From the NCBI GenBank assembly GCA_023205875.1, contig CP060763.1, forward strand, positions 496,001 through 560,000: a stretch of DNA of 64,000 bases, read 5' to 3'. This stretch comes from Chloropicon primus (Eukaryota; Chlorophyta; Chloropicophyceae; Chloropicales; Chloropicaceae). Shown piece after piece: positions 29,113 through 48,355 of the stretch. Both the position numbers and the translations under genes were made by a program. Every line of letters begins with the position of its first letter. Positions within the stretch are counted from its first letter, which is position 1. Under the pieces are notes generated by a model, which did not search any database, was not told where the DNA came from, and saw only the letters and a program-made list of their open reading frames with translations.

Positions 29113-32100
29113 ATGGAAGACCGAGAGGGAGGGCCACGAACCCCTGCGGGGTCCAGGAGGACCATCCCTCTGATCCACTCCCCTCTTGGAGAAAGGAACG
29201 GGACGCCGTCTTCGTCATCTTTTTTCAAAGCCAAGGTGAAGACGGGGTTGGCCTACGACAAGTATTCTAACTCTGCGAGTGCTTCTTCTACGGCAACGAG
29301 GTACCACTCGTTATGGAGGGAGGCCGAGGACAGGGCAGCAGCACTGAGCGAGCAGCTGAAGATGCTGAGGGACAAGGACAAGGAGACGAGGGAGGACGTT
29401 GAGATGCAGAGGAAGCTGCTGAGAAAAGCTGCATCAGAGGTGAAGGTGGAGGTGGTGAGCATGCAGCAGGCCTTGAAGGATAAGGAGAACGAGCTCGAAG
29501 CTGCCAGGAAGGAAGCGGAGGAGGCCAGGACAAACCAAGGGAACCTCGAGAGCGACATCAAGCGGTACGAGGACAGGGTGGAAGATCTTGCCTCCGCTTT
29601 GAGAGGCGAGAAGGAAAGAGTGAAAGATCTAGCTGTCTTCGAGGAAGAGGTCAAGGTGTTGGAAACGCAGTCCGCGAAGCTCTACTCAGAAAAGGTGGTC
29701 ACCCTGGAGCAGAGCCTGGAGGACTTGTCACGCAAGCTCAACGACCTGTCTGCAGCTGAGCTCGAGGAGCCCTACCCGCAGGAAATGAAGTCGAACCACA
29801 TTTGGCAGCAGGCAACCAACGCAGCCAAAGCGAGGTCGAGAGGGCAGAGAGCAGCTGCTTTCGCGGGCCAGGCCAAGGCCGAAGCTCGCGTCTCGGCCCT
29901 GCAAAGGGAACTGGACTCCCAGATCCGAAGGAACTTGGGCCTGGAGAAGGAGGTCCGAGTCGCGAGGCTCAGGTCCTCGAGCACGGAGGAGAAATTAGAA
30001 GAGGAAGGGAAAAACCTGCTGACCTTGAGTCAGGAGCTCGAGGGGATGTCGAAGAAGTTTCAGGAGACGGAAGCAAAGTGCACAGACACGTCAGAGAGCT
30101 TCAACGCCTTTGTGGGGAAGACGAAGGAGCTGGCCGGCAGCCTCCTTTCTGAGATTGAGCCCATTGAAGCAGAAGAAGATTACGAGATTTCGTCCGCGAA
30201 TGACAGCGAAGGTGAGGACGGGGGTGAGGAGGACGGCCAATACAATGCAGCGTTCTCGTTTCTCGCGAGTGCTGTGCGGAAGTACAAAGCCGCGATGAAG
30301 TACACGAAAGCCTCCAGTAGAGCTCAATTGCAAGCTAGGGAGGTGGCCTTGAACGAGGTGAGGGAGGAGAGGGAGATCCACAGGAAGCAGATAAAGGATC
30401 TCAAAACCGGCGCCTCAGACCTTGAACGATTGAACGAGCAGCTTGAGGAAAAGGTGGACGACTTGGAGGCGCTGCTTGCTGCTACAACAAGCGCAAAGGA
30501 GAAGTCCATTGCGAGCGCTCAGCAAGACTTGGAAACGTCGAGGAAGGACGCCACTGATCTCATGGAGAGGACCGAAATGCTGGAAGATGAAAACCAGTCC
30601 CTGGTCACCAAGATCAGATCGCTGGAGGAGAAGCTGAGTGGGGAGAGGGCGAGCATGGAAACGTCGAGGAAGGACGCCACTGATCTCACGGAGAGGACCG
30701 AAATGCTGGAAGATGAAAACCAGTCCCTGGTCACCAAGATCAGATCGCTGGAGGAGAAGCTGAGTGGGGAGAGGGCAAGCATGGAAACGTCGAGGAAGGA
30801 CGCCACTGATCTCATGGAGAGGACCGAAATGCTGGAAGATGAAAACCAGTCCCTGGTCACCAAGATCAGATCGCTGGAGGAGAAGCTGAGTGGGGAGAGG
30901 GCAAGCATGGAAACGTCGAGGAAGGACGCCACTGATCTCATGGAGAGGACCATAATGCTGGAAGATGAAAACCAGTCCCTGGTCACCAAGATCAGATCGC
31001 TGGAGGAGAAGCTGAGTGGGGAGAGGGCAAGCATGGAAACGTCGAGGAAGGACGCCACTGATCTCATGGAGAGGACCATAATGCTGGAAGATGAAAACCA
31101 GTCCCTGGTCACCAAGATCAGATCGCTGGAGGAGAAGCTGAGTGGGGAGAGGGCAAGCATGGAAACGTCAAGGAAGGACGCCACTGATCTCATGGAGAGG
31201 ACCGAAATGCTGGAAGATGAAAACCAGTCCCTGGTCACCAAGATCAGATCGCTGGAGGAGAAGCTGAGTGGGGAGAGGGCGAGCATGGAAACGTCGAGGA
31301 AGGACGCCACTGATCTCATGGAGAGGACCGAAATGCTGGAAGATGAAAACCAGTCCCTGGTCACCAAGATCAGATCGCTGGAGGAGAAGCTGAGTGGGGA
31401 GAGGGCGAGCATAGCCAAGCTACAGAGTTCAACATTTTCAGAACAGAAAACAATCGCATTGTTGCAGCAAGAGCGTGACGAATCAGCGCAGAAGCTCGAG
31501 GACATCACACAGTCTTACGAGATAGAACGCTCTGACCTGGAGAACAGAAACGAGGAACTAGAGACACAAAAGGCGAAGCTCGAGGAAGTCGTGTCTTCCC
31601 AGTCCAGCGAAATCAAAGCAGCAGAGGCGTTGAGCATATCCTTGCGGCGGGAGTTTGAGAACCATGTTCGGGGCAGTGGAAAGAAAATGCAGCTTGCTGA
31701 AGAGAGCCTCGCGAGATACAAGGTCTCTCTGGAAGCGTCGCAAGAAGAAGCCAAGAACTTGCGATCGTCCAATGAACGACTAAACAGGTCCGTCGAAGGA
31801 ATCAAGACGAGGTTGGAGGGATCTATTTTGGAGGGTTCGGACAGGGAGAAGCATAGGCAATCCCTTCGGGATCTCTCCGACGCGCTGAAGAGCCAGATCA
31901 AAAATTTGGAGGAAGAGCTGGCAAGCAAAGATTTCGAGCTCCAGGACTCCCGGGCCGCTCAAGCAGACCTTGAGAGCAAGGTCAAGAGCTCCGCCGCAAA
32001 AATTGAGGAAGGCAAGGCGAAGATTCAAGAACTCAGCAACGAGATGAGTCAGCTGAGGGAGCGAGCTGGAGGGACAAGCACAGAGCGTGACGAGCTCATG

Positions 32101-33585
32101 GGGGACATTGCACACCTGGAGGCTTCGGTTAGATCCACGAAGGAATCCCTTGCCTCGGAGCAGCAAGCGAGTTCGAAGCAGAGCATCGAGATCGAGAAAC
32201 TGAAGGCTCACATCAGCGCGCTCGAGATTGAAGTGGAAAAGTACATCGAGCTGCTGACCCGCAGCAACTCCGACAAGGCGACCTACGAGGAGAAGTTTGG
32301 AGACCTGAAGGAACATTTATCGGAAGTAGAAGACGAGAAGGAGACGTACAATGAGCAGATCGGCATACTGAAGGAGAGTCTGGATCACAAGAATGAGCAG
32401 ATCAAGCTTTACGGCATTTCTTGCAGGGACATTCTCGTGCAGATCAAGGAATCGATTTCTCTGGCCTTCGGCGACCAGTTCCCTGGGGTGGTTAGCGGAG
32501 TTCACCTGGACGCCACTGACGGCGAGGCTGGCGGTTTTGATTTTGACGCGGAAGCGTACATCAGCATGAAGAAGCTCTGCGGCGAGGTCTTCCCCATCCT
32601 CAAGAGCCGGATGGATGACGACAAGGAGAGCATGAAGCAGATGAGGCAAGGTGTGGAGAACCTGAAGAGGGACTTGGGGCAATTGATGGCGAGGGAGACG
32701 GAACTCAAGAATAAGCTCGCCAAGCTCCAGGACGAGAGCTTCCGTTGCAAGGAGGAGCGTGACAATTCGGTGGGGTCCACGGAGATCCTTCAAGCCCAGA
32801 TCGCGGAGCTCAAGAGAGTGCTAGAGGAGACTGCGATGAAATCCACGGAGAGCGAAACCGAATTGCAGCGCAAGAACGCAGAGTTGGCTCACCTGAACGA
32901 GGACCTGGAGATGGCTCGGAGCCACAGGAAGGAAGTCAACAAGGTCGTGAACATGTTCCAAGAGGCCGAGAGGCACTTCTCGAGGCATTTCCTGGAGATG
33001 GAGAAGCAACTGGGCAAGATCAAAACCGGTGCCGAGAAGTTTGAAAACGTTACGAGGAACGTCAGGCAAAAGTCGGAGCTGCGCTCCATGGTGGATGAGA
33101 TCAGGCATCTCCAAGACCTATGCACCCACCAAAGAAATCTTATCGCGAGGTACGGCAGCCTCAGCGAGGAGTTTGGGATGATGGACGAGCACCACTCCGA
33201 GGTTTACGGGGAGATTGTGCAGCTCCAGCAAGAGTTGCGGTCCTGCAGCGAGGCATTCCAGGAGGGGAGTGCCGGCCGAATGGTGAAGTCGTCCTCAAAC
33301 GTCGGAAGGAAGAACAGGCCCTGGTGGCAGACTGTCCTAACCCTCCCCATCCGACTTCTCCCAGCTGTGGCGATGATCGCGTCGAGCAGGAAATCCAAGG
33401 AATTGCGCGAGAAGGCTGTGCAGCTCTTCCTCAAGGGCGGGCATAGCACCGCGGGGGCTCAGAGCCCTGTTGTGGAGAAAAAGCCTCTCGGCGCCAAGCC
33501 GTACCTCAACGGTTCTCCCAGCAAGTTTGATTTTTCTGTACCCAGGAATAGGGTGCTCATGCCAAACAAGGAGGAGGAGGAGTGA
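29113..33585 (+). CDS. Giant coiled-coil protein with seven 42-residue hexaheptad repeats
   Basis: Single exon, 1490 residues, ATG at 29113. A ~75-residue basic/Ser head precedes one of the longest coiled coils possible here, broken by an acidic stretch near 355-375. Residues about 473-766 are seven tandem copies of a 42-residue unit (six heptads: 'ETSRKDATDLMERTEMLEDE' then 'NQSLVTKIRSLEEKLSGERA'), almost identical at DNA level. A conserved-looking non-repeat part lies at about 1110-1180 ('GISCRDILVQIKESISLAFG', 'KKLCGEVFPILKSRMDD'). Near the C-terminus, 'WWQTVLTLPIRLLPAVAMIA' is a single hydrophobic patch followed by a basic helix, possibly a tail anchor, so a golgin-, nuclear-envelope- or basal-body-tether-like role can be imagined. 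No family is recognised. Confidence 0.85.
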   Translation: MEDREGGPRTPAGSRRTIPLIHSPLGERNGTPSSSSFFKAKVKTGLAYDKYSNSASASSTATRYHSLWREAEDRAAALSEQLKMLRDKDKETREDVEMQRKLLRKAASEVKVEVVSMQQALKDKENELEAARKEAEEARTNQGNLESDIKRYEDRVEDLASALRGEKERVKDLAVFEEEVKVLETQSAKLYSEKVVTLEQSLEDLSRKLNDLSAAELEEPYPQEMKSNHIWQQATNAAKARSRGQRAAAFAGQAKAEARVSALQRELDSQIRRNLGLEKEVRVARLRSSSTEEKLEEEGKNLLTLSQELEGMSKKFQETEAKCTDTSESFNAFVGKTKELAGSLLSEIEPIEAEEDYEISSANDSEGEDGGEEDGQYNAAFSFLASAVRKYKAAMKYTKASSRAQLQAREVALNEVREEREIHRKQIKDLKTGASDLERLNEQLEEKVDDLEALLAATTSAKEKSIASAQQDLETSRKDATDLMERTEMLEDENQSLVTKIRSLEEKLSGERASMETSRKDATDLTERTEMLEDENQSLVTKIRSLEEKLSGERASMETSRKDATDLMERTEMLEDENQSLVTKIRSLEEKLSGERASMETSRKDATDLMERTIMLEDENQSLVTKIRSLEEKLSGERASMETSRKDATDLMERTIMLEDENQSLVTKIRSLEEKLSGERASMETSRKDATDLMERTEMLEDENQSLVTKIRSLEEKLSGERASMETSRKDATDLMERTEMLEDENQSLVTKIRSLEEKLSGERASIAKLQSSTFSEQKTIALLQQERDESAQKLEDITQSYEIERSDLENRNEELETQKAKLEEVVSSQSSEIKAAEALSISLRREFENHVRGSGKKMQLAEESLARYKVSLEASQEEAKNLRSSNERLNRSVEGIKTRLEGSILEGSDREKHRQSLRDLSDALKSQIKNLEEELASKDFELQDSRAAQADLESKVKSSAAKIEEGKAKIQELSNEMSQLRERAGGTSTERDELMGDIAHLEASVRSTKESLASEQQASSKQSIEIEKLKAHISALEIEVEKYIELLTRSNSDKATYEEKFGDLKEHLSEVEDEKETYNEQIGILKESLDHKNEQIKLYGISCRDILVQIKESISLAFGDQFPGVVSGVHLDATDGEAGGFDFDAEAYISMKKLCGEVFPILKSRMDDDKESMKQMRQGVENLKRDLGQLMARETELKNKLAKLQDESFRCKEERDNSVGSTEILQAQIAELKRVLEETAMKSTESETELQRKNAELAHLNEDLEMARSHRKEVNKVVNMFQEAERHFSRHFLEMEKQLGKIKTGAEKFENVTRNVRQKSELRSMVDEIRHLQDLCTHQRNLIARYGSLSEEFGMMDEHHSEVYGEIVQLQQELRSCSEAFQEGSAGRMVKSSSNVGRKNRPWWQTVLTLPIRLLPAVAMIASSRKSKELREKAVQLFLKGGHSTAGAQSPVVEKKPLGAKPYLNGSPSKFDFSVPRNRVLMPNKEEEE
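30529..31410 (+). repeat. Seven tandem 126-bp coding repeats
   Basis: 882 bp = 7 x 126. Copies differ at only a few bases: copy 1 begins Leu instead of Met, copy 2 has Thr for Met at position 12, and copies 4 and 5 have Ile for Glu at position 16. Each copy equals six heptads, so gain or loss of a copy keeps both reading frame and coiled-coil register. Confidence 0.97.
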
Positions 33586-33887
33586 GTGATGAAGCGGTTG
33601 ACCTGCAAGCGTACGGCCTCTGGCACATACCCTGCAACAAACGAAAACAAAAAACAAAAAGTCGTTGTCGTGTCGTTGTATATATCAATATTGTTTCTTT
33701 TTGTACGAAAGTGGAGCACCGATCACGCCCCCCCACCCCCCACCTTGCACTCTTCCCTCTTCGGAGTGATCCTGATCCCCACCTCGCAAGACCCCGGGCC
33801 ATGGCCTCTCTCTCACTCTGCTTTGCCAGGTCACCAAGAGAGAGGAGAGAGAGAGAGAGAGGAGGAAGAGAGTTAGAGAAGAACACG
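33586..33887. other. Intergenic/leader region with GA tract
   Basis: 302 bp. T/G-rich with TTGTATATAT and TTTTGTACG soon after the coiled-coil stop (likely 3' end), then C-rich, then a (GA)n tract at about 33839-33861 just ahead of the next ATG. An in-frame upstream ATG at 33801 could lengthen the next protein (see that entry). Confidence 0.5.
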
Positions 33888-34757
33888 ATGTCGAAAGCGA
33901 TTGCAGGAGCTCTGCCAAAGATATTGGGCGTTATCGGTGCCGGCCAGATGGGTGCTGGGATCGCCCAACTCGCAGCGATGAATGGTTTTCGAGTCCTTCT
34001 GCAAGACGTGAGCGATGACGCACTGAGCAGGGGAATGAGCGGAATTGAGAAGTCCCTCTCGAGGTTCGTCAAGAAGGGCACGATCTCGGAGGAGGCCGCC
34101 AAGGCGTCCTTCGAGCAAATCGCGCCCAAGAGAGACCTGGAGTCCTTCGCCGAGGTCGATTTCGTGGTCGAGGCCGTGAAAGAATGCGAAACTTTGAAGC
34201 AAGATATCTTTGGATCCCTGGACCGGATCACCAGACCGGAAGCTATCCTTGCCTCCAACACGAGCTCCATCTCGATCACGAGGATTGCGAATGCGACGAG
34301 TAGGCCGGAGCTCGTCGTGGGAATGCACTTCATGAACCCCCCACCCATCATGAAGCTGGTGGAGCTCATCAGAGGAATGCAGACGTCCGACGAGGCGTTC
34401 CTGAGGGCAGAGACCTTTGCAGAGGCCCTGGGGAAGACGGTTTGCAGGTCAGAGGACCGCCCTGGGTTCATAGTGAATAGAATATTGATGCCCATGATTA
34501 ACGAATCGTTCGTGGCGCTGATGGAGGGGGTCGGTACGCCGGAGGACATCGATGCCGGCATGAAGCTCGGGACAAACCAACCTATGGGACCCCTCGCGCT
34601 GGCTGACTTCATAGGACTGGACACCTGCTTGTCCATCATGAGGGTTCTCCATGACGGTCTGGGTGACACCAAGTACAGGCCTTGCCCCCTTTTAGTGCAG
34701 TACGTTGACGCCGGCTGGCTCGGAAAGAAGACTGGAAGAGGAGTCTATCACTATTAA
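33888..34757 (+). CDS. 3-hydroxyacyl-CoA (3-hydroxybutyryl-CoA) dehydrogenase, single-domain type
   Basis: Single exon, 289 residues from the ATG at 33888. NAD-dependent oxidation of L-3-hydroxyacyl-CoA (beta-oxidation) or the reverse step. Rossmann start 'GVIGAGQMGAGIAQLA' with acidic 'LLQDV' strand end; catalytic region 'SNTSSISITRIA' and 'GMHFMNPPPIMKLVEL' (the His of MHF is the catalytic base); C-terminal dimer domain 'DRPGFIVNRILMPMINE', 'MGPLALADFIGLD', 'GWLGKKTGRGVYHY'. The length fits the bacterial HbdA/FadB2 type without a hydratase fusion. An ATG 29 codons upstream in frame (33801) would add MASLSLCFARSPR plus a GA-encoded Arg/Glu run; this could be a mitochondrial presequence, so two isoforms are possible. 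No C-terminal PTS1 peroxisome signal is seen. Confidence 0.93.
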   Translation: MSKAIAGALPKILGVIGAGQMGAGIAQLAAMNGFRVLLQDVSDDALSRGMSGIEKSLSRFVKKGTISEEAAKASFEQIAPKRDLESFAEVDFVVEAVKECETLKQDIFGSLDRITRPEAILASNTSSISITRIANATSRPELVVGMHFMNPPPIMKLVELIRGMQTSDEAFLRAETFAEALGKTVCRSEDRPGFIVNRILMPMINESFVALMEGVGTPEDIDAGMKLGTNQPMGPLALADFIGLDTCLSIMRVLHDGLGDTKYRPCPLLVQYVDAGWLGKKTGRGVYHY

Positions 34758-34836
34758 AAATTCTCCTTCGAATATACGACTGATGTTTTTGCTCTTGACG
34801 ACCCCGAGTGGATCCAGCCCGTGCTTCGCGCGCTGA

Positions 34837-36696
34837 TCACACGTCAGAAGGAGCGAGCTGCTTCCATTTCGCGGCAACGAGAAGCATGCTGAGCCCCGTG
34901 ATCACAAAGCAGGAGGTCAGAGGGACGAAGCCCGTGTGCGAATGCGTTGAGCTGTACACGTATCCCGCGATCGTGGGGGCCAGAATCCGACCGGCGGAAC
35001 CAGCAGACGCGAGATTTCCCATCCATATCCCCTGCTGCTCCTTGGACAAGACTTTTGAGAGGGCCGACACCACGACCGTCTGGGACAGGGGGTACCCGAG
35101 GCCCCACACCATTCCCACGCCGATCTCGAAGCGAGCGAGAGACATCTCGCGGTCGAGGCCTTCGCCATCGTGGGGGTCCAGGGTCAGCCCGAGGCCTGCG
35201 AGGATGAAGCCCAGACCGAGGAGCAGGGTGCTTCGATCTGGGAAATGCCCGCTGAGGTAATACACCCCGGCAAACACGATCAGGCCAAAGACGCCGATGA
35301 CAGTGAAGGTGATCGAAACCCGAAAGGGTGCGCCGTCCGCTCGCCACACCTTCTGGCTCGTGGACCCCGTGTACAAGTAAGAGATGATGTACGTGGACAG
35401 CGTCTCCAGCGTGGCGAGCACGGCGCGAACGGTGAAGTTCAGTAGAATGAAAATCACCACGATCCCGGGGACGTCAAGCAATTTCCTGAGGGAGGACGAC
35501 GAGCCCCCCTTCCCCGCGGCTTCCGCTGGGCCCCCGGGCGCCATGGCCTCCGTCTCCTGCGCGGCCTCCGCCTCTCGAGCCAAGGACTCCGTGCTCTCCG
35601 ACTTCTCCAACTGCATCAGGTACGGCTGAGAGGAGTTGTGGTACTTTGACCGTCCCAAACTTCTTCTCTCGCTGTTCGTCTGGTGCCCGGCCTCCGGGTC
35701 GAACAAGGTGTTTGGCACCGTCAGCAGGACGACGATACCGACCGCGTACGCGACAGTGAGCACAAACCCCGGAAGGTTGTACTTCGTGAGGCTCAGGGAC
35801 GCGATGCCGCCAAAGTCGATCATGCTGATGAAGGCCGTCAGCGTGAAGCCGGCGTACTGGAGCGCACACAGGATCGCAATGTAAGGCCCTCGCTCGGCTT
35901 TGCTCGTTTGCTTCGCGATGTACGCCCTGCCGACCCCGAGGACGGACGCCCCCACCCCCAACATCGTCCTGGAGGCCACGATCATGAACGTGGGGGAGAG
36001 AAACCCGTTCACGTGAACGTAAGAGGCGTACGTGTAGAGGAGATTGCAAATCGCGCAGATCGCCATCGAGAACAGGAGGACCTCGCCCGTGTTCCTCTGG
36101 TCCATCCAGTACCCGTAGACCGGCGCGGCGAGCAGGCGGCCTGCGCTGAAGCCGGCGTTGGCGACGCCCACCGCGCTCGACGTCCCACCGAATTTTGAAA
36201 GGTACCCTTGCAGCGTCGGGAGCACCAAGCCCCTGTTTCCGTCCCCCACCAGGACGATGAAGCAGATGAAGACCATCGAGACCCGGCGCCTCGCCCCCTC
36301 CCCGCCCAGCCTCGCCCAGCCGCCCAGCCGGCCCCCTTCCCGCTCCCCGAGCAGAGGATCGACCAGGTCCGTGGGTCTCAGACTACCTTTCCTGTCGAAG
36401 AAAGCGGCCCTCCAGGACCCGCCGAACCGGGGGGGCGAGGGGCACGGCGTGTCCGCCGCGGCCCTGGAAGCATCGTCCCGAGCGTGTTGAGCGCCCGTCG
36501 CCCACGCCCACCTCCCTCGGGGCCTCTCTTCCTCCCCTCCGCCTCCGAGACGATGGTAAGGGTCTTCGTCCCCAGCCTCACCAAGACTCCACTCCTCGAT
36601 CTCTCCGTCACCTCGCGGCGGCGTCCTCCCCCCGCGACCGCCGTCCTCCTCACCGACCAACTCCCGGACGACCATCAACCCGCTCTCCAGACTCAT
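34837..36696 (-). CDS. Major facilitator superfamily transporter, MFSD8/CLN7-like
   Basis: Single exon, 619 residues from the ATG at 36696. A long N-terminal tail (1-135) is Gly/Glu/Arg-rich and ends with an acidic dileucine-like 'DLVDPLLGE', a vacuole/lysosome sorting type. Twelve hydrophobic segments follow in two blocks of six, split by a polar loop of ~80 residues (about 350-430). The first block opens 'VSMVFICFIVLVGDGNRGLVLPTLQGYL' (cited in part: 'GLVLPTLQGYLSKFG') and contains an MFS loop 'GYWMDQRNTGEVLLFS'. The pattern is nearest the CLN7/MFSD8 and SPX-MFS group, which reside in lysosomes or vacuoles; the substrate cannot be told. The first ATG may be too early: the tail overlaps, on the other strand, the start of a decayed propeller gene. 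Confidence 0.8.
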   Translation of the reverse strand: MSLESGLMVVRELVGEEDGGRGGRTPPRGDGEIEEWSLGEAGDEDPYHRLGGGGEEERPRGRWAWATGAQHARDDASRAAADTPCPSPPRFGGSWRAAFFDRKGSLRPTDLVDPLLGEREGGRLGGWARLGGEGARRRVSMVFICFIVLVGDGNRGLVLPTLQGYLSKFGGTSSAVGVANAGFSAGRLLAAPVYGYWMDQRNTGEVLLFSMAICAICNLLYTYASYVHVNGFLSPTFMIVASRTMLGVGASVLGVGRAYIAKQTSKAERGPYIAILCALQYAGFTLTAFISMIDFGGIASLSLTKYNLPGFVLTVAYAVGIVVLLTVPNTLFDPEAGHQTNSERRSLGRSKYHNSSQPYLMQLEKSESTESLAREAEAAQETEAMAPGGPAEAAGKGGSSSSLRKLLDVPGIVVIFILLNFTVRAVLATLETLSTYIISYLYTGSTSQKVWRADGAPFRVSITFTVIGVFGLIVFAGVYYLSGHFPDRSTLLLGLGFILAGLGLTLDPHDGEGLDREMSLARFEIGVGMVWGLGYPLSQTVVVSALSKVLSKEQQGIWMGNLASAGSAGRILAPTIAGYVYSSTHSHTGFVPLTSCFVITGLSMLLVAAKWKQLAPSDV

Positions 36697-37764
36697 GACG
36701 CCCTTCCCCTTCCCCTCGGTCAACTCCAACGCCAACGCTCTCGTAACGCCTCGGCCGTTACGGTCCCTCTCTTTTTTTCTGCTGCTGGTGGCTGCGACTC
36801 CCGATCCAAGAGAGCGAGCAAAGAGTTTTTGCTCTCAAGCCTGGTTCCGTTCTCGCAGCAGCAGGGGCGGTTGGTTGACGACGGTAACTGGGTCAGAGTG
36901 AAGGTCGAGCTGGAGGGCCTGCTCGAAGCCTCCAAGATGGACAGGTGGAACAAAATAGTGCTCAAGGATGCTGGTGGAGAGGGCTTTCAGCTCAGGATCG
37001 ATGGCATCGCTTTGGGACCCAAGTCCCACTCGGAGGCGGACCAAAAAGAGGGGACGTCCGGCGAGGCGGAGGTGTACAGCAAGCCCAGCGAGAAGGCCGT
37101 ACGCACCTGGCTGCCGGCGGAGCATGCACCTGGAAGCTTCGAGTTCGCTCGAACTGGCGAGGGCGACATGGAAGACAAGCTGCCGAGCATCGCCGAGCAT
37201 GCTTTGGAGGAGTTCACGTCCAAAAAATTGTGCGCGTCTTACAGCAGCCCAGTGGGGGTGTCACACATCTCAGATTCGGGGCTAAAAGAACCCAGTGGCT
37301 TTGCAGCCTCAAGGAGGTACAAGGGTATCATCTGGACACACCAAGACCGAGACACGGAGCCCTTCCTGTACGGTGTCATCGCCCACACAGGCGAAGTGGT
37401 CTCGAAGCTCTACGTCAACACAAAAAAGTATGGGGATACGGATTGGGAAGATATTGCAGTGGCGCTTTGTCCCGACAAAAGCGGAGACCACTGTCTCTGG
37501 ATCGCGGATAGCGGCAACGTGAGGCGGGACAGGGACATCTTCTACGTGCACGTTCTCCATCTGGTGACAACGTCGTCTGGTAGGAAGGACACAGAGAGAG
37601 AAAAGGACGAAGGGGGACAACGTACCACCACGACGCTCGGTAGGGTATGGGCAGCTTGCTTTGCCTTAGAGAAAGATGTTGAGACACGCCCAAAGGGGCG
37701 GGAGGGCTTACCCCTATTCTTCAAGTCAGGATCACCACAAGTCCAAACGTCGACCTCGCTTTAG
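36695..37764 (+). pseudogene. Truncated bacterial-type six-bladed beta-propeller gene (fragment)
   Basis: The plus frame from about 36890 to 37565 encodes real-looking protein: 'KGIIWTHQDRDTEPFLYG', 'YGDTDWEDIAVALC', 'CLWIADSGNVRRDRDIFYV'. The WTHxDxxxxPxLxx..DWEDIAV..LxIxDxGxNxxxRDxxxxY pattern is that of a secreted propeller family common in actinobacteria and other bacteria (from recall). Only the first blades are present: after 'FYVHVLHL' the frame runs into low-complexity sequence and stops at 37764, and the next ~800 bp do not resume the fold. A signal-peptide-like start, 'PLRSLSFFLLLVAATP', lies at 36695 in another frame, so even the 5' end does not join simply. I read it as a decayed host gene, perhaps once of bacterial origin; a spliced short form is the alternative. 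Confidence 0.5.
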
Positions 37765-38265
37765 CCCCAAGGCAAAAGTTATTGCTCTTCTGGGCTTGTT
37801 CTGCCTCATAGCAACGCGTGGGGTCCTCAGCGGCAGGGGTGGCTCTCCCGTTGAGGACAAGCAGCCGAAGGATCCGAATATAGTCCCTATAACGAGGGTC
37901 CCTGCTCGTTCGATCAGCAGTGTCAAGGAGTTTTTCGACAGGTATGGAGACCAAGTCGTCATCGTTGAGGGGGTAGTGCGTCACCACAAGGCCTTTGAGT
38001 TAGGTCATGATCAACAAACACCCACCCTTATCCCTTATCTTGATCCGAGAAATCGTATTGTCATGTAACGTGACCCACCGATTATGATCCGAGTGGAGAG
38101 AGAGAAAGCAAAATCGTGAGGTTGCAGTGGGGGAGGCGGAGGCTGAGGGTCAAGGTCGTGCGGCCCAACGACGAGTGGATTGACAAGCAGAGGCTGGTGC
38201 CTCCGGCCGTAAGGTCCGTGGTCAAGGGGGTGGACAGAGTCTTTCATAGCATCTTCGGAGGGTAG
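37676..38265 (+). pseudogene. Type II membrane protein fragment, cupin/JmjC-like start (possibly short spliced gene)
   Basis: An ATG at 37676 opens a 130-codon frame ending at 38068. It has a basic tail, one membrane segment ('KVIALLGLFCLIATRGVLS') and then 'ITRVPARSISSVKEFFDRYG' and 'DQVVIVEGVV', which resembles the beginning of a Cupin_8/JmjC domain ('eFxxrYxxxxxPVVixG'). The remaining ~200 residues of such a domain are missing. About 160 bp on, 38128-38265 is open and looks like a C-terminal exon ('RLRVKVVRPNDEWIDKQRLV', ending FHSIFGG). Joining GTAGTG at 37973 to CAG at 38127 would keep frame and give a 143-residue protein with no complete domain. So either a real small spliced membrane protein or a cupin gene with an internal loss. 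Confidence 0.4.
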
Positions 38266-38599
38266 TGGGCAGGGGTCCACGCTGTGTATTGTATGGATCA
38301 ATCATGATCGCCAGTTCACTAGGGGCTCCATCGGCGAGCCGTGGACCATGGCGATGGCGTGCAGCACGAGCCACCTCTCCGCGCCGTGGAGGGAGGGGAA
38401 GCAAAGGTGGACTCTCCCGAGCCTGAGAAAATAAGAGCGGCAACAAAAGGGGAGTTTATAAATACTACAAAAGCTGTGTTTTTTCCAAAAGTGATCCCAT
38501 GGCTTTTGGCGGGAATTTTGAAAATCGGCGGGAGGAGAAGCGAACCGAAAAACTAAAAGTAACGGACGGGCGTCGAGGCCGAGGGACAGAAGACGGAGC
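38266..38599. other. Spacer before the AP2/PD-(D/E)XK gene
   Basis: 334 bp with no recognised gene; AT-richer around 38440-38480 and 38500-38560 than the rest of the window. It may carry the promoter of the downstream foreign-looking gene. Confidence 0.35.
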
Positions 38600-38605
38600 G
38601 TGACC

Positions 38606-39841
38606 ATGCCCAAGGGGGTGTTCATTGACAAGCGCCTCAAGAAGCGACGACGCGCCAGCAGTTCAAGACGGAGCGCGACCATGCCCAAGGGGGTGTGCAT
38701 TAACAAGCGCCGCAGCAAGAAGAAGCCGTACGGAGTGCGTATCGGTCGCAGCTCGCCATACTACGCCACCGTGGCGGAGGCCGTCGCCGCCCTCGAGGCG
38801 TACCGCGCGGGCAAACTCAAGAAGAGGGCGACCGCCCGAGCCGCGCTCGCGGTGAAGCGCGCCCGCGACCTGGCGATCTACGGCCGGAGCTCCGCCACGG
38901 AGCGCGAAGTGGCGCTCGCCCTCGTCGCCAGATGGCAGGCGACCATCCCCGGGAGAACGGCGCTCGTGCTAAACGACGGCACGAAAGCCGACGTGCTCCT
39001 CCGCCTGAGCGAGGAGGACGCGTGGCTGCCGGTGCAGCTCAAGACGACGAGCGGCACCGTGAAGGGTAGCCCGAATACGTGGAACTTCCACAACGTCACC
39101 GGCTACTCGGGGATGTGTGTGGTGTGCTGGCGGTGCGACGTCGGCGATGCGTGGGTGTACAACGGCAACGCGCTGAACGAGCGCGGCAAGCTGGACCTGA
39201 GCGTCACCCCCCGCCGCAAGAACTGTGAGCTCGCGCTCGCGCGTGACCTCAACCTCGACGCGCTCGTGCAATGGCTGAGCGAGCAGGCCCAGGCCCAGGC
39301 CCAGGCCCAGGCCCAGGCCCATCTGTGTCGGTGGACGACCGTCACCGAGCACGCCGCGCGGCACGACTTCGCGTCCGCGGCCCAAGCGCTCGAGATGCGC
39401 GGCATCGACGCGTTCAAGGCGAGCTTCCCAAAGCACCACTACGCCTTCCCCAAGGGACAGAACACCCAAGTCGACCTGCTCAAGGATGCGACGACGCGCC
39501 AGCAGTTCAAGACGGCGCGCGCGGCGTCTAACGGCGCCGCCGGGTTTATGTGCGACCTGCACACCTGCGCCGGGCGTGACGAGGCGGGCAAGCAGCTGAA
39601 AGATCCTTACCCGGCAGGGGCGTTCGACGAGCTAGTGGCGGTGGCGTGGGTGGAAGACAAAGCATACTTTTGGATCATCCCCGCGGCAGAGCTGGAGGCG
39701 AAAGGGTACCTGCAATCGGAGTCGCAGCCTGGGAAGACGTGCCTGAAGCTGCACGCGTCGCAGATTGGCGTGCAGCCGAACCCGCACGCGTGTAGGAAGG
39801 TAGACACGTGGACCCACAAGTACTTCCATTCCGCAGCTTAG
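38606..39841 (+). CDS. AP2-like DNA-binding plus duplicated PD-(D/E)XK-nuclease-like protein, foreign codon use
   Basis: Intact frame to 39841: 411 residues from the ATG at 38606, or 385 from the ATG at 38684, which follows a ~78-bp direct duplication of the start (both read TMPKGV...). Residues ~40-75 ('YGVRIGRSSPYYATVAEAVA') resemble an AP2/ERF-type DNA-binding fold, as in mobile HNH-AP2 nucleases. Then come two PD-(D/E)XK-like cores: 'TEREVALALVARW...DGTKADVLL...WLPVQLKTTSG' and 'NTQVDLLKDATTRQQFKTA'. Each has the order D then QxK; the second is closed by 'DKAYFWIIPAAELEAKGYL', a common end of such nucleases. An (Ala-Gln)n tract separates them. Arginine is mostly CGC/CGG, unlike the AGG-rich neighbours, which suggests horizontal transfer. 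A homing-type or restriction-like nuclease is likely, but activity is inference. It sits among broken genes. Confidence 0.7.
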   Translation: MPKGVFIDKRLKKRRRASSSRRSATMPKGVCINKRRSKKKPYGVRIGRSSPYYATVAEAVAALEAYRAGKLKKRATARAALAVKRARDLAIYGRSSATEREVALALVARWQATIPGRTALVLNDGTKADVLLRLSEEDAWLPVQLKTTSGTVKGSPNTWNFHNVTGYSGMCVVCWRCDVGDAWVYNGNALNERGKLDLSVTPRRKNCELALARDLNLDALVQWLSEQAQAQAQAQAQAHLCRWTTVTEHAARHDFASAAQALEMRGIDAFKASFPKHHYAFPKGQNTQVDLLKDATTRQQFKTARAASNGAAGFMCDLHTCAGRDEAGKQLKDPYPAGAFDELVAVAWVEDKAYFWIIPAAELEAKGYLQSESQPGKTCLKLHASQIGVQPNPHACRKVDTWTHKYFHSAA

Positions 39842-40935
39842 CTTTCATCATGCTTTTTTTTTCTCGTCTTCTTCATCTTCTCCTCGAGCAACCGATGTCT
39901 CTCTCTGTCTCTCTCCCAATCATATATTTCATATCTTTTTTATATATAGAAACAATACATATATAACACGCCCCCCTCTCTCTCTCCTTGTTTAGATGGA
40001 TCGTACCACACCAGGGTCACATCGAGCTTCCCTTCATCTCCGGTTTCAATGCAGTACGAATGAACGTCCCCGGTAGAAATGGCAACGGCGTCCTGCACGA
40101 AAAGCTTGAAGCTGGAATCAAGAGGCAAGCTCCTCTTGAGCAGGACCCTGCCGAAGCCCTGTTCAAAGCTCGGCACCTCGTTCATTGGGTAACCCGCCTC
40201 AGAGTAACCATCTAGCGGTTTTGCCCCGTTCAGCAGGACAGCCTTGATGAGAGCTCCGGAGGGATGCGTGAATTGGCTGACACCATCCACTTTGTGCCTC
40301 CCTTCTGTGAAGTACTGCCTGATCAAAACAGCGGCGCCCGAAACGACCGGCACGGCCATGGAGGTGCCAGACTGCTCCTTGACGTAGCAAGACTTCCTGC
40401 TCAGCAAGGGGACGCCAGCCGACACGAGGTTTCCAGGAGCGAGGATCTCCGGCTTTATCCTCTCGTCGAAGGTGGGGCCAACGGACGAGTACTCCGCGAG
40501 GGTCTCGTACGTCGGAACGTCCGACGCCCCCCCCTGAAAGAGGACTTGCAGGGACTCTCCATCCTCGAATGCATTGATCACCTGCTGTCCATACCGCAAA
40601 GAGATGGAGTACGACGGAATGGTTATGTCGTCACCAGGATCGGTCTTTTTGCCGGCCATGTAATAGAAGCCCTTCTCCTTGTTGTTGTAAATCAGCACCG
40701 CTTTTGCTCCTGCGGTTTGGGCGTTTCGAGCCTTCTCAGTGAATGGGCACATCCCCCTCTCGATGATCACGACCTTGCCCTTCACGTCGTCTGCGTTGTA
40801 AAGAGCGTCGCATGCCTTGAGGGGGGCCAGGAGCAGGCCTTGGGGAGGATGTGGGAGCTCCCTTCTTCTTCCAATAGCAAAGTAAAAGAATGAATGTATA
40901 TATATGTATGTATGTAACGCCGAAATCCGCCTTCA
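39842..40935 (-). pseudogene. Subtilisin-like serine protease, C-terminal part only (PA domain to catalytic Ser)
   Basis: Minus-strand frame ending at 39940. It begins inside a protease-associated domain ('LKACDALYNADDVKGKVVII', 'ERGMCPFTEKARNAQTAGA') and runs into the subtilase core with 'ILAPGNLVSAGVPL' and the catalytic serine block 'SGTSMAVPVVSGAAVLIRQY'. It continues to 'GFGRVLLKRSLPL' and a beta-sandwich part. The catalytic Asp and His, normally 150-300 residues earlier, are absent: upstream the frame is closed, and the DNA immediately becomes the 3' end of the mannosidase remnant on the same strand. So the gene has lost its 5' half. The remaining frame is clean, suggesting the loss is fairly recent. 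AT dinucleotide repeats occur at both flanks (39920-39962, 40895-40917). Confidence 0.7.
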
Positions 40936-43068
40936 GGGGAGGTCGAGCTCGCGCGCGTACCCGTACGGGTTGGTGGTCTCGAGGGTCTCGAGGGCGCTGG
41001 CCAGGACCAAGGGGGTCGTCTTCCAGATGAGCATTCCGGTGTACTTGGTCCACATTCTCGACCCCCAGGCCTCCGCCAGGGCCTTGTACTGTGTGAAGTT
41101 GACGATCTGAGCCCTCTGACAGTACTCGTCCAGATTTTCGGGCTCCCCGTAGCTCAGAATTTTGCTCCGGCCCGAGCTCGTGGTGTACGTGATGTACTTG
41201 TGAAACTCCCAAGACTTGGGGACCACCTCCGTTACGGTTCCATCGGCGTTCTTCACGAACTTTGGTGGGTTCTGATCTCCTGGTTTCGTGAACATCGTGC
41301 GAATCGACTCGGCGCACGGCACGCCGACGGAACCTAGCTCAGGGTTGAAGCCGTAGGGGTAAAACGAGTCTGACCAGAAGTCGCTCTCGTTCTGGATGCC
41401 GTAAGGCCCGTCGCTCCAGTCCCCCCCGCCTTGACCAAAGCCCCCCCACAGGCTGCCGGAGACGTAGGGCCGGGAATCGTCCAGCGAGCCCTTTTCTCCC
41501 ACCAGCGCCCGGAGGCCGTCGTCAAGCTCCTTGCACGGCACCTGTTCGTTCCCCCGCACCAAAGGACCACGGAAGGGTGGTTCCTCAGCTTTTTATCACA
41601 TCGCAGGCGCACTCGAGGAAGAGCTGGTGGTCGAGGGGCCAATCCGGGTTGCTCTCCGGCGAGTCCTTCGTTGCTCCCCGGCCGTCGCAATCCCCGGTGA
41701 TCCAAAACTCGGACCACACCATGATCCCAAAGAAGTCGCACGCCTCGTAGAACTCGGCGTAGGGCACGCCGGCCCCGCCCCAAAGCCTGATCATGTTCAA
41801 GCCCATCTCGGCGTGATGCCGAACCTCCGTCCAGCACCTCTCCCTGTCGCACCTGAGCATTGCGTCCGGGACGATGTAGTTGCCCCCTGACGAAGATGGG
41901 CACTCCGTTGACCGTGAACTGCCTCGAGCGGGTCCTGGGATCGATCGCGGACTCCAGGGACCGAAATCCAAAGGTCGTGCTCACTTGGTGCGAGACTTCG
42001 CTCGGGGTCTGCGCCAACGACACGGACACCCGCAACTCGTAGAGGTTCTGCTCGCCGTGCCCAAGCGGGAACCACAGCATCGGGTCCTCGAAGCTCTGCT
42101 GTCCCAAGTCGAACTCCCCGCCACCTGCCTCGCGCCCAGCTCCACGGTTTTGGCCCACTGCTGGCCCTCGCGGGGTCCCCTCGCGCCGCGGCCGCGGCTT
42201 TGTCCCCTCGGTCGCGCCGAAGCCCTGATGACCACGCGAACGGTCTCTTGGGAAAGGTTTCGGCAGCCCACCGTTAACCTCGCCTGGGCCCCCGACTCCG
42301 CACCCTTCCGGAACGTCACTCGGACGCGGGGTCGGACAGCAAAGCCGGGCCGGACATCTGAAGGCGGACGGAGCCCCACAGCCCGGTGTTCCTGTCCGGC
42401 ATCGGCTGGATCCAGTCCCAACCCTCCACGTACTGGCTGGTCACGTCCTTGGCTATCATGTGGTCCCCCCTGGCCACCGAGGTCCACGCAGCCCACGTGG
42501 TCCGGTGGCTCCACCAGGATCGCCAGCTCGTTCGCGCTGGTCTCGGCCAGGGCGCTGGCGGGCACCTCCACCACCCGCCTCAGGAACATGCCCTTCGCCC
42601 CCGACAGCAGGCTCACGCCGTTGACGTGCACGGAGACCCCGTAGTTGGCCCCTCCAGGAGGACCTGCACGTACGGCGACGCAGGGGTAGCAGTAGTAGGA
42701 GGAGGGCGCGTCCTCCGAAGGCGGAGGAGGCCGAGCCAGCGCCCGAGCCCGCACGCCTCGCGCCGTCGAGGCGGGCGCGCGCGGATCCTCGGCGTGTCGA
42801 AGCTCGTGCACCACCAGAACGTGTAGTAGTCCCTCCCCGCGTGGAAGACGTCAGGAATGGTCAGGACGTTCTCATCCTTCGCGGGGTCCGGCAGCAGCCC
42901 GTTCTGGACAAGGAGCGCCAGGGCCGTCGACGGCACGGTCGCGGGCAGCCAGCCGGAGGACGAGGACGAGGACGAGGACGAGGTCTCCCGTTGTCGTCGC
43001 GCCCTCCAGGGACCCAGCAACAACTCCTCCTCTGGGTGAGGAGGAGCAGGAGGAGCCGGACGCATCAT
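40933..43068 (-). pseudogene. Plant-type mannosylglycoprotein endo-beta-mannosidase (GH2), frame-scrambled remnant
   Basis: Homology to plant endo-beta-mannosidase (GH2, releases mannosyl groups from N-glycans) runs through the minus strand, but in pieces of all three frames. In order: 'GWLPATVPSTALALLVQNG' and 'GRDYYTFWW' (43068-~42655); 'ANYGVSVHVNGVSLLSGAKG' (~42650-42490); 'AKDVTSQYVEGWDWIQPMPD' (~42480-42340); 'ARLTVGCRNLSQETVRVVI' (~42330-42240); 'QQSFEDPMLWFPLGHGEQNL' (~42130-41890); 'HAEMGLNMIRLWGGAGVPYA' (~41885-41588); 'LRNHPSVVLWCGG' (~41590-41540); 'SESDFWSDSFYPYGFNPEL' region to the stop at 40933. At least seven frame changes occur with no GT-AG introns to explain them. The C-terminal ~100 residues are missing. 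Host gene in decay, or a badly sequenced stretch. Confidence 0.75.
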
Positions 43069-43382
43069 GGCCCTCCCTTTTTTCTGATTCTGATGTGAAG
43101 CAGATCCGGAGTGCCCGCTTTTGCCGCGATCAAAGACAGAAGAGGCGGACGAGGTCGAGGAGTTTGTGTGCGATCGCGGCGTCCACTCGGCTTGCGCAGG
43201 AGGGAAGGGAGCGGAAAGAGGTCGGAAGAATTGTCTCGCCCCCTTCGATCGATTGATCGATCGATCGATCTTGGAAGCTGCGCGGCGGAGGCGGAGGAAA
43301 ACTCGGGAGGGGAGGAGGACAAGGGAACAAGGGTGGGTGTGGGTGGGTGCGATCGATCGATCGCCAGGAGCGGCCGTGATCG
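43069..43382. other. Divergent intergenic region rich in GATC/ATCGATCG repeats
   Basis: 314 bp between the mannosidase remnant and the 1282-residue gene. Contains ATCGATCGATCGATC at about 43248-43271 and again ATCGATCGATCG at about 43350-43363, plus GGGTGGGTGTGGGTGGGTG. Presumably the promoter of the plus-strand gene. Confidence 0.5.
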
Positions 43383-46300
43383 ATGAGCGGCGCCCGGTTC
43401 GAGGCGTCTTGCTTTAGGCAGGCGCCGGGACTCCGGGGCACGCCGCGTGACGACGGTTGCGGCGAGAGGGAAGGGGCGAGGCGCCAGCAGCAGACGTGCT
43501 ACTTGGGCGTCTTCAAGATCGGGTCGAAGGAGTTCTCCCTGCACCGGTGGGAGGAGAAGCTCTTGGATCGCGGAGAGCTTGGATGCAGGAAGGCGTACTA
43601 CCTCTGCGAAGTTCTCGACATCCTGCGTGCGCCGCCTTCGAGGTGCCCGGGCTTCTTCGTCGCGAGCAACTTGCAGAGGGTGGCCAGAGTGGCGCTGGAC
43701 TTCGTGACGATTACGCAGGACGTGCACTTGCTGGACTCGGCCCTCGAGGTGACCACGACAATCGTCGGCCTGGTGGGGTGCTGCGCTGAGGAGCCCGCCA
43801 CGGAGGTCTTGGGGTTCCTCCTCAAAAGGTACGAGAAAGAAGGAGACACGAACTCTCTCTCTCTCTCTCTCTGTCGCGCCACCCGTCCACTGACTTTGCA
43901 GCGCTGACGTTTCTCGCCCTCTCCCCTCGATCGCACGCGCCCAGGGCCTGGTACAACCTCCAAACGGCCGACGCCGGGGAGAGCAACAGGACGACAGTGC
44001 TGATGAAACTCTGCAAGTGCTTGATGAGCGCGTTGGCGCGAAAGGATCCCCTGGGGATCGTGCTGGCGACCCAGGCGGCCTCCCAGAACGCCACCTTCGT
44101 CGTGAAGATCTTAGACAGCCTGGTGGATCGCAGCGCCTCGGCAACCTTTGTGGAAACGGCCCTCGCCGTTCTGCGCCACTTGTGGGACTGCCACACGCAG
44201 TACTCTGGAGCTTCCTTTCTCAAGTCATTCCTCTACGAGCACGCGTCCAGAATCCACGCACTGCTTCTGTTGTGCCACCTGACCAAGGAAGCGACCGATA
44301 GCGCGAAGGTCCTCTGCTCGGATTTCGTCTTGGACCTCCTCGAGCAGAGTCCGCTCAAGTTTGATCTGGACCACGTGCCCGAGATCGCCCACGCCGCGGG
44401 GTTCGGCTACGACTACAACAGGGGATCGTCCACCTGGGACTTGCTCCTTTTGGTGACGAAGGATGCCCTCCTGCACCCCGAGGCAAAACTCTCCTCAAAC
44501 GGAATGAGGCTTGCCCAGTTCGTGGTCGGCACTGTCGCCCAGGATCAGGGCAGGAGGTCGGTCGACAAGGATTTCTTGGACCACGTCATCAACGTCGTTC
44601 GTGGGCAGGCCCTGGCCTGGTCCAAGGGAGACAGCGCAAGGAATCAGAATCTCAAGGATGTGGCGGGCATCGCGTCAATAGGCACGCTGCATGACATCTG
44701 CTCCTTTTGCATGACACCGTCGGTCGCTACCGACCCGTGCCTTCACAGGGCCATCGACGCGTGCATTCTTTGGCTCCGCCTTGATGTGGGGGACTTCTTC
44801 GATGCGAGCCTCTCTCTGCAGCTTTACGAAATCGTGCTGGTCTGCTTGGGCAAGATGGCGCACCCCCTGCAACCCAGCTCACTACGGGGGCTGCTGGACG
44901 TCGCGGAAGGAACAGTGATGAGCCCGACGGAAAACGAGACGACTCAGCTTGCGAAGAGCAAAGCCATTTTGGGGATCTTTGACGGAGTGCTAAACATGAT
45001 CTCGGTGGGCTGCAAAGGCGAGGAAATCGTGCTTTCCCGGGGCGAGGGCGACGACGGGACCCGAGGAGACCAAATTTTGCCTCACATTTGCAACTTGATG
45101 CTGTCCGTGCTCGGTCAGTTCGCGAACGAGAGATTGCCCGCGAGTCAAAATTCTTACTCGGCTTCACAGGATGATACGATTGTGCAGTGCCTCGTTTCTG
45201 GAATGTCAGCTTTGGGCACCATGCACAAACTCTGTTGCAGGATCATGGCAACCCCCGGAGCGCCGGATGTTGGCCCGTGCCTTGAGGCCGTGCTCTCTGG
45301 ATTCGACGAGCTCTTGGTCCCCCTGCTTCAGCCGTACATGTGCAGCAACCACGGTGGCGGTGCTCTGGCGATGGACTTTGCGTTTGCCGTATTGGGACTC
45401 TTTGATGGTGCGCGAGAGGAGAGGAAGCACACCCCGGCGCACTTGAAGTCCCTCTCCTTCAAGATCTTTACATCGAATCTGATCTTTCTGCTCTTAGGCT
45501 TGCCCCCCCTGCGAGATGACACGAAGGGTGCGATCGCGATGCTGATTTCTCAGCTGGTTCAAGCAGTCACCGGCACGTACCTGACAGGGAGGGGCTTCGC
45601 AGCACATCTCTCTCAGTCGCAAACACCTCTGACCACGATGCTTCGAGGGATCCTGGACAAGGAATCCGACCAAACCCTTTGCGGGACGCTGGAAGACGGC
45701 CTGGCACTCATTACCTGTGTGTTGTACCACAAAAGCAACACTGGGGAAGCCAAGGAGCTCGAGAACGTGCTGGTTATGGTGAGGGATACATTAAAATGTC
45801 ACACCAAGATTACCCTGCATTGCAAAGCAATCTTGGGATTTCTTGGCACCGATCTCCACCGGTCGAGCCCCATAGGCACGTTGACACAGGACGAGCTGAG
45901 AAACGCTATGGCCAAAATGACACCAGTCTCTCGGGTTGGACTCCTCGCGTGGCTTTCGAAGCAGAAGCACTACGATTCACAAGACATGGATGCAATCTTG
46001 ATGTGCATCATTGGCATCGCACATTCCGTGCCGTTCGTGAGACTCTTCGAGTATTCGACGACGGACGACCTGGTCCGCCTCGCGAGGGCAACTCTGGGGA
46101 AAGTTCAGATGGAGCACGGGCGCCTGGAGCCCACCAAAATCATGAGCGTCTTGACTTACGTGAGGGAGCTGACAATGATTCCCAACTTCAGGGAGTGCCT
46201 TTTCTCGGAGATGTTTCTTGACCAGGTCCTTGGGATTCTGAAGCTCGTTCAGAGCAAGGAAGAGAAACTGGCGTCGCTCTCCTACAAGGATGACAAAGAC

Positions 46301-47347
46301 TTAATAACGAGGGAAGCCTTCTATCTGGTCTTTGCGTGCCTTGACTCCGATGGCCAGGAAAGTCGGTCGGACAGGTCTGAGAGGTCGTCGTGCTGGCTCC
46401 CCTTTTTGGTTGGAATCCAAGGCATCCTGATACCGAGGGCAAAGGAGGGAGGCGGCGGCGAGCCCACGGATACAGGCCTCCCGCTGTGCTTGCTCGTCAG
46501 CCTGCTCTCCAAGGTCCTCTCAACAAATGAAATGGTCCGGGAACTCCAGCTGCTTGTCAGGTTCTGCCTGAATTCCTCGGCGAAGAGCATGTCAGCGGAC
46601 GAAAGCCCTGATATCCCCCTCCCGAGCGCAATCCTATTTCTGGAGAGGGTTGCCAGCATCGAGAAGGAGCGCATCGAGAATCACGAGAGATCCGAGCAGG
46701 GGCTCTTGGAGCAGACGCAGGCGCCTGGCAATGGAGAGCGCGCTGCAGACGACATCTGGTGCTCCTTTGAGTTCGTAAAGTCCATTTCCTCGATAGCCGC
46801 TCTGACCCAAAACACCAGGCTCGGTGGGTACCACCGGGAGCTGCTGAGCTTGACCTCGTCTCTCTTTGCGATCTGGTCCTTCAGGAGGACCAACAAGATC
46901 GAAGAAGCGGTCCTATCCTTGAGCGACGAGGTGGTCTCAAACATTTTCTCCTTTTTGTGCTTTGCGCACGGCAGGGTAAGCAAGCCGGGCGGGGGCCTGC
47001 CCGACAAGCTCATGGCACTGGAATGCATCTACAACCTCGTGTCCACGAATGTTATCCATAAAAGTGTCAGGATTAAGCTGCTTTACTATCCCTGGAACGA
47101 GCCGGTGTTCCAAGGCGCGGTTTCCTTCTACAACGGCTGGCCGGGGTCCATGGCGTTCAGCCTCTGCCGGACGCTTCTGTGCATTCTGAGGGTCTACAAC
47201 ACAATCGGTCTGCCCAAGCCCCCGCCCTGGCTCAGGAGGTTCATTTTCCGCAACCACCACTTGATGATGATCGCGATCAACAACTTGGAGGATAAGGGGG
47301 AAACACAGTCCTTCACAGAGACGCTCGCGGAGCTAACCAGGCAATGA
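43383..47347 (+). CDS. Large alpha-helical (HEAT/ARM-like) protein of unknown function
   Basis: Two exons: 43383-43828 and 43945-47347, 1282 residues. Donor GTACGA, acceptor CGCCCAG; the join completes 'FLLKR|AWYNL' in frame. The intron carries a (CT)n tract. Almost all of the protein is helix-rich, leucine-rich and low in charge repeats, with no signal peptide and no catalytic motif, like an alpha-solenoid. Distinct parts: 'SPLKFDLDHVPEIAHAAGFG' (about 320), 'LIFLLLGLPPL' (about 665), 'GIAHSVPFVRLFEYS' (about 840) and a well-ordered C-terminus 'KPPPWLRRFIFRNHHLMMIA'. Large nucleoporins (Nup188/Nup205) and FANCI-like solenoids have this general look, but I cannot support any of them. The N-terminal 35 residues are Arg/Gly/Cys-rich and may be disordered. 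Confidence 0.8.
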
Positions 47348-47405
47348 CGCCAGTATTGTTGGCGCGGGTGGGTGTGGATTGAATTAAGACAACCGTATCT
47401 TCTTC

Positions 47406-48305: not shown

Positions 48306-48355
48306 GGATTATCCAGATTGAGATTACGATTACGATGAAATTAAACGCTTTCACT

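Follow-up and report, generated by a model that had tools for sequence, protein, structure and literature searches.

How does a gene for a nuclease-like protein come to lie among fragments of other genes in the chromosome of a green alga? The gene in question occupies positions 38606..39841 of a 64,000-nucleotide stretch of Chloropicon primus DNA (the window; contig CP060763.1), and an initial annotation made from the letters of this stretch proposed that it was a selfish gene of the homing or restriction type, isolated among broken genes and acquired horizontally. That reading holds in part: the nuclease fold and the arginine codons support it, the supposed isolation and overall codon use do not. 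The explanation we prefer, with a probability of about 0.5, is that the gene is a core duplicon driving itself – a homing-type nuclease gene that would spread by illegitimate repair and not by allelic homing.

The frame at 38606..39841 (forward strand) can be read from end to end without a stop, and the gene is thus intact, as had been claimed; a Pfam profile search with its product returned zero matches. The start codon shared by the family is probably the second ATG (38681), because the first 25 codons of the longer frame fall within a local duplication of 55 nt (38590-38644 / 38665-38719), and because only two of 11 copies in the genome (L009 and L011) carry two start motifs: the other nine have one, equivalent to the window ATG at 38681. 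The features of the gene are as follows.

38606..38680, forward strand: N-terminal extension, made of the local 55-nt duplication and a short copy of the frame's own core-2 DNA.
38681..39841, forward strand: nuclease gene, the family open reading frame (386 aa), beginning at the ATG common to other copies.
38681..38830, forward strand: possible AP2-like DNA-binding segment (weak), from the model and from HNH-endonuclease profile matches in relatives.
38882..39322, forward strand: nuclease core 1, residues ~68-214, D99...D104...Q119-x-K121, Hjc-like (alignment, model, fold search).
39350..39838, forward strand: nuclease core 2, residues ~224-386, D265...Q275-x-K277 (alignment, model, fold search).

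The region ahead of the start codon is itself composite. In four copies it contains a short copy of the coding DNA of core 2, located in the leaders of L014 and L016 and between the two start motifs of L009 and L011 (window 38641-38677), as if template switching had copied it in. Part of the 5' leader is 88% identical over 59 columns to a stretch on another contig (L025, C8:272927-272985) that lies, judged by eye, ahead of another ATG; the nuclease gene may therefore have acquired a host leader.

An AlphaFold2 model of the window protein (pLDDT 82.7) contains two PD-(D/E)XK domains, each with a D...QxK signature. Structure prediction, which had been put forward as a check on the initial annotation, thus bears out its nuclease-like cores: the fold predicted is that of the restriction endonucleases, and in each domain an acidic residue is followed by (D/E/Q)xK on a core strand. 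Across 18 sequences of the family D99, D104 and Q119 of core 1 are invariant and K121 nearly so, as are all three of D265, Q275 and K277 in core 2. The usual triad of the superfamily contains D/ExK and QxK is a variant, so catalysis by the double-core protein is predicted as likely, not proved.

Fold comparison places core 2 nearest to I-Ssp6803I (PDB 2ost), a PD-(D/E)XK homing endonuclease, and to MepB (PDB 4lqe, PF08877). I-Ssp6803I is borne by an intron and homes to one site; the algal protein differs in having two cores per chain plus an N-terminal segment, and its gene lies at many unlike sites and without a group I intron match. The profile PDDEXK_5 (PF11645), which we take to represent the I-Ssp6803I family, matches one of 18 family members, weakly (E 0.19). 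The solved MepB chain is a single domain of 149-160 residues, unlike the two-core algal protein; PF08877 touches five of the 18 members (best E 0.015). Among the fold matches listed are the restriction and defence nucleases NhoI, Eco15I and SPARDA. Uncharacterised giant-virus proteins resemble the algal family in predicted fold over the full length – Hyperionvirus A0A3G5A8P9, Klosneuvirus A0A1V0SIJ8 and Aureococcus anophagefferens virus A0A076FH51, with 320-349 alignment columns, E 5e-18 to 1.7e-15 and query TM 0.55-0.58 – at a sequence identity of just 14-17%. The link to giant viruses is thus one of compared folds: sequence searches gave no confirmed relative in viral contigs, none in phages and none confirmed in GTDB prokaryote contigs, and we found no description of this nuclease family in the open-licence literature.

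The possible AP2-type segment receives weak support through relatives of the window protein. One of eight proteins tested (P0029) matches a phage HNH-endonuclease family at E 4e-4, and three of seven N-terminal pieces match phrog_99, an HNH-endonuclease profile, in the same region (E 7.7e-5, 0.04 and 0.096); the window's own protein matches that phage family neither among the eight proteins nor among the seven pieces. Pfam AP2 has zero matches among six N-terminal pieces, the N-terminal profile A3 found no AP2 chain in the PDB, and structure comparison with VIA-align listed no AP2 chain, its alignments hardly covering residues 1-67. Folded alone, the N-terminal segment gave a poor and uninformative model.

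Codon use had been described as foreign on the strength of arginine and alanine. The arginine bias is clear: CGN and AGR codons stand at 22:4 in the gene versus 56:108 in six host genes (CGN 22/26 versus 56/164; Fisher P = 1.6e-6), and the leucine codon TTG, used 54 times in 265 in host genes, is absent (0/33; P = 0.0014). Alanine GCG/GCC is ordinary (57/62 versus 183/220; P = 0.11). The likelihood of the whole gene (-0.947) lies within the range of codons drawn from host usage (-0.965, sd 0.031), in a comparison that includes a coiled-coil host ORF omitted from the Fisher tests. The codon check proposed earlier, run here by likelihood, hence shows overall use inside the host range, with arginine codons and leucine TTG deviating, a pattern that hints at a foreign origin but does not prove it.

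The gene is also far from alone. Ten intact copies, a broken one and a fragment are present in the genome of C. primus RCC138 (17,584,162 bases in 20 contigs), to which strain CCMP1205 has an average nucleotide identity of 99.91% (PMC12301720). A search of this genome gave 16 rows, 10 of them near full-length open frames (the window's included); three further rows belong to one copy on C3 (L019, frame-shifted and with stops), one stands for the fragment on C13 (L020, 55 residues), and the core-2 DNA copies in the leaders of L014 and L016 account for the last two, which are short. Ten of the 11 copies examined are therefore intact, and an isolated foreign gene is ruled out by about a dozen near-identical copies in the same genome. 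The 11 copies lie on seven contigs, with the fragment on an eighth, and their flanks differ; homing to a single site therefore did not produce them. Among the minority of protein matches that bear a species name, none is from C. roscoffensis.

Differences between the copies are concentrated in changes of amino acid. Among the 10 intact copies (45 pairs; L019 and L020 set aside) mean dS is 0.015 and mean dN 0.044 (NG86), a ratio of 2.9. Counted per codon there are 111.5 nonsynonymous and 12.5 synonymous steps, where 12 mutation models give an expected nonsynonymous share of 0.63-0.79; the excess is significant under all of them (P = 5e-4 to 7e-12), with the proviso that both the pairwise and the per-codon tests treat changes as independent although the copies appear to exchange sequence. 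When codons within three of an indel are removed, the extra alleles number 81 nonsynonymous to 11 synonymous. The noncoding flanks diverge little – 1.6% on the left (58/3544 sites in seven of 10 copies, leaving aside L011, L014 and L016) and 0.17% on the right (5/2985 sites in 10 copies) – and it is therefore dN that is raised. In all, 80 codons vary in amino acid. Five conserved stretches (95-107, 118-123, 238-244, 263-267 and 274-279), the D and QxK motifs among them, contain zero variable codons, and a sixth, the helix stretch 72-83, contains two (76 and 82). The most variable regions include the first 15 residues (8 variable codons), 121-135 (6) and 286-300 (5), the latter two following the QxK strands.

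Might this be a family useful to its host? A restriction-like antiviral nuclease could be kept in many copies, an arms race against giant viruses driving their diversification, while spreading passively by segmental duplication and leaving mosaics as a by-product. A dN/dS of ~2.9 fits such a role, with which positive selection is compatible; so do the 10 open frames among 11 copies, the full-length fold relatives carried by giant viruses and the presence of NhoI, Eco15I and SPARDA among the fold matches listed. PADLOC defence models, however, gave no convincing match (two families, each in one of 12 members, at E 0.0083 and 0.035), and no partner gene travels along, since the stretch common to all 11 copies consists of the gene with a short leader and trailer. 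We regard the antiviral explanation as rather unlikely.

If the gene is instead a self-driven core duplicon, attention shifts to the DNA around it. Searched against the genome, the 8-kb stretch around the window copy is tiled by matches to other places, as listed here.

36796..43113, no strand assigned: whole mosaic island (6318 bp), the gene flanked by eight pieces that have matches at other chromosomal places.
36796..37558, reverse strand: piece matching C14:465642-466404 (99.7%).
37558..38118, no strand assigned: piece matching C14 at 453k, 454k and 511k (98.7-99.4%), by eye a JmjC-like gene region.
38121..38312, reverse strand: piece matching C18:371270-371461 (100%), also in L010 and L014.
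38311..38501, reverse strand: piece matching C2:147015-147229 (about 98%; 98.2%).
39856..39998, forward strand: piece matching C6:222645-222787 (98.6%), directly 3' of the gene.
39998..40824, forward strand: piece matching C2:251776-252602 (100%), a subtilase gene fragment.
40866..41023, forward strand: piece matching C4:1080052-1080209 (100%), first part of a circularly permuted segment.
41017..43113, forward strand: piece matching C4:1077946-1080051 (99.3%), second part of the permuted segment.

We infer that the versions in the window are the copies and that the sources are the other places, because there the sequences are continuous. The subtilase gene on C2 continues through VWYDPPADLLSSKSIVNDLDL, whereas the window copy is cut off and runs into the C6 piece. 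For this fragment, breakage of a host gene by decay or by insertion of the nuclease was accordingly rejected: it is a captured piece, the C2 gene continuing past the break. At its left edge the island starts outside the frame of an MFS transporter.

The two pieces adjoining the gene are widely shared. That from C2:147015-147229 occurs, whole or in part, in seven other copies (L010, L011, L013, L014, L016, L017 and L018), and that from C6:222645-222787 in 10 of 11 copies (L018 lacks it) as well as in the fragment L020. Both (98.2% and 98.6%) are more diverged than most of the outer pieces (98.7-100%), as expected if islands grow outwards; an outer C5 piece of L012, at 93% identity, counters outward growth as a rule.

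Mosaics were found in all four copies whose surroundings were searched whole (the window copy, L011, L017 and L018), and each of the 11 copies has at least one piece matching another chromosomal place, most flank matches having 97-100% identity. These matches come from the best 40 of 49 candidates in one search of surroundings and from all candidates in the window's 8 kb and in two further searches. L018 carries a piece of C18:15902-16582 (681 bp, 100%); L017 carries pieces of C3, C9 and C5 (423, 526 and 1358 bp, 99.8-99.9%); L011 carries pieces of C7 (1246 bp, 100%) and of C2:494759 (98%), its right side joining DNA unmatched elsewhere. Compared across copies (matches of at least 60 bp and 90%), flanks seem to travel with the gene. 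The C14:453k site, for example, is split: the part ending in AAAATCGTG is found on the left of the window copy, and the part that begins with GCTGGCATGG on the right of L014 and L019.

Two further arrangements were seen. Parts of a stretch of ~1 kb (L034, C9:462993-464013) appear in the right flanks of L013, L015 and L016 but in the left flanks of L017 and L018, an order that either a circle or a long duplication of the target would give. At C14:453273-453789 (L029) there is, by eye, a truncated JmjC-like fragment in the opposite orientation to a longer frame ~1 kb away; it is possibly a mosaic, or a former insertion site, that lacks the nuclease gene, in which case pieces may be joined without any need for the nuclease. 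A block found on the right-hand side of the gene in L018 and on its left-hand side in L014 and L019 (the X block) was considered as a second circular permutation, a reading dropped since the other flanks misfit one circle.

Within the window the C4 segment (C4:1077946-1080209) stands in circularly permuted order: the ends it has in the window are direct neighbours on C4 (..GGAGTG|TTCTTCC..), and its ends on C4 are joined in the window by seven common bases (41017-41023). The simplest reading is that a circle was opened at a single point, the alternative being a tandem duplication on C4. Between this segment and the preceding C2:251776-252602 piece lie 41 unplaced bases. Where both neighbours are known, junctions between pieces are sharp, with overlaps of 0, 1, 1, 1 and 2 bp. 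Microhomology of 7, 9 and 10 bp occurs at three junctions, and the other 10 have 0-2 bp or 2-41 extra bases; the extra bases, at five junctions, number 2, 4, 7, 32 and 41, of which the 4 and 7 (L010 and L014) begin with the same bases and so are not independent. In these counts the C9-C2 junction of L017 and L018 is entered once, and the L015/L016 junction is omitted, having been re-read as C6-C5-C9: in L015-L017 the C5 piece joins the C6 piece through 10 common bases. An older insertion scar at the C5/C9 junction of these three copies was considered and dropped, as C5 itself holds the 23 bases concerned. No common motif was apparent by eye at the piece boundaries.

Junctions of this kind resemble ordinary end joining, and together with the captured bystander gene pieces and the C14:453k fragment, which suggests a gene-free mosaic, they would suit a gene that is a pure passenger: fragments or circles inserted at random breaks, the gene amplified by chance and its protein uninvolved. 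Yet it is the nuclease gene that is the stretch common to all copies. Elsewhere in the window (17001-36795 and 43114-59999) no piece of at least 120 bp and at least 97% identity matches another place in the genome, among the best 39 of 104 candidates of one search and four of five of another; below these thresholds lie a dispersed repeat of ~100 bp (one row 108 bp, 97%) and 68% paralogues. Nor would a passenger be expected to have a dN roughly threefold its dS together with D...QxK motifs that stay unchanged. Chance amplification is in our view distinctly improbable.

A further rival is a conventional mobile element: a transposon with fixed ends, a retrocopy, or an intron-borne homing endonuclease at one type of site. 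Pairwise comparison of 8-kb stretches at 12 places shows that homology between copies ends at differing points on both sides. Relative to L010, left ends lie at 2985-2986 (L009, L014), 3177 (L013, L017, L018), 3242, 3290, 3363, 3401 and 3423, and right ends at 4634, 4668 (three copies), 4699, 4712, 4774, 4815 (two copies) and 4852; beyond 3177, L013, L017 and L018 have a further 26-69 bases in common among themselves. The comparison revealed no common terminus on either side. Fanzor/TnpB-type genes, which encode nucleases and are likewise dispersed in this genome as near-identical copies (43 PF07282 matches, fragments included), served as control, and unlike the nuclease family they have such a terminus: in 12 loci of 3.2 kb, forming two groups of six in the same orientation, homology stops at one end within ~50 bases per group (2000-2049; 1141-1186), the other end lying outside the loci and the matches counted being those of at least 150 bp on the same strand. 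PMC6731263 mentions 25 IS605-like proteins, by a measure that differs from our 43 matches.

One feature of the ends stands apart: L009, L010 and L014 have an identical left boundary (GGTTGCAG) in three different contexts, which random ends leave unexplained and which might mark a preferred cut site. This boundary in three copies, and the near identity of dispersed copies, are what a conventional element has in its favour. No repeats bounding the island were found, however; no Rfam family, group I introns included, matched window 36000-44000 at gathering scores; and no poly(A) was seen at the 3' junctions inspected, target-site duplications being judged by eye only. With end structure, bounding repeats and Rfam all against them, transposon, retrocopy and intron were ruled out, and we consider a conventional element highly improbable. 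That chimeric long reads made the mosaics during assembly is scarcely credible: several pieces are 100% identical to their matching places, as an artefact would have them, but inner pieces are diverged (97-99%) and common to several copies, the chimeric subtilase protein P0031 has records on two contigs, as do P0001 and P0004, and one contig with P0004 has 1,467,028 bases, a length that differs from that of C4 here.

A dispersed gene with a double PD-(D/E)XK fold, whose copies have no common ends, lie in mosaics with sharp junctions and show dN greater than dS, is suggestive of mobility, perhaps through DNA breakage and pasting-in during repair by the cell. Its closest analogue is the primate core duplicon lcr16a / NPIP 'morpheus', which it resembles closely. 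As described in PMC9132208, lcr16a has a common core in interspersed copies with differing duplicated pieces gathered around it, independent breakpoints on both sides, and complex junctions with microhomology and inserted pieces, for which circular intermediates are proposed; its core gene is under strong positive selection. The algal family, too, has one core in interspersed blocks with varied flanks, and a core family under positive selection. It differs in having a core ~ten times smaller, in belonging to a 17.6-Mb genome and in the nuclease fold of its core gene, so that the driver may be encoded by the core itself; in apes SVA and Alu lie at the breakpoints. The core gene looks like a homing-type nuclease and might make the breaks.

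We envisage the self-driven core duplicon as follows. Diversifying DNA-binding surfaces of the nuclease would determine where it cuts DNA, and the cuts would free or open chromosomal fragments, some of which would circularise. End joining, with occasional microhomology of 7-10 bp, would ligate gene-bearing and bystander pieces into a break, each new copy taking along some flank of its previous site. A copy that recognised a new site would be favoured, and dN/dS above 1 would thereby be explained. End joining would thus have built the mosaics, with the protein's own cuts starting the process and diversifying selection acting for new DNA targets.

Taken further, the family may represent a new kind of selfish element that lacks ends. 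Its nuclease would cut chromosomes, the end joining of fragments or circles would paste the gene with scraps of host genes into new sites, and positive selection would act constantly on its DNA specificity in favour of new targets – a self-propelled core duplicon. We offer this broader claim tentatively, as a possibility somewhat short of an even chance. The movement of primate core duplicons is, according to PMC9132208, only partly understood, and a similar pattern is found here in a single-celled alga with a small genome. With small islands, base-for-base matches elsewhere for their pieces and a nuclease-like core gene, the hypothesis that the product of the core makes the breaks becomes testable. 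If true, it would give a selfish gene a route by which to shuffle host gene fragments into new combinations.
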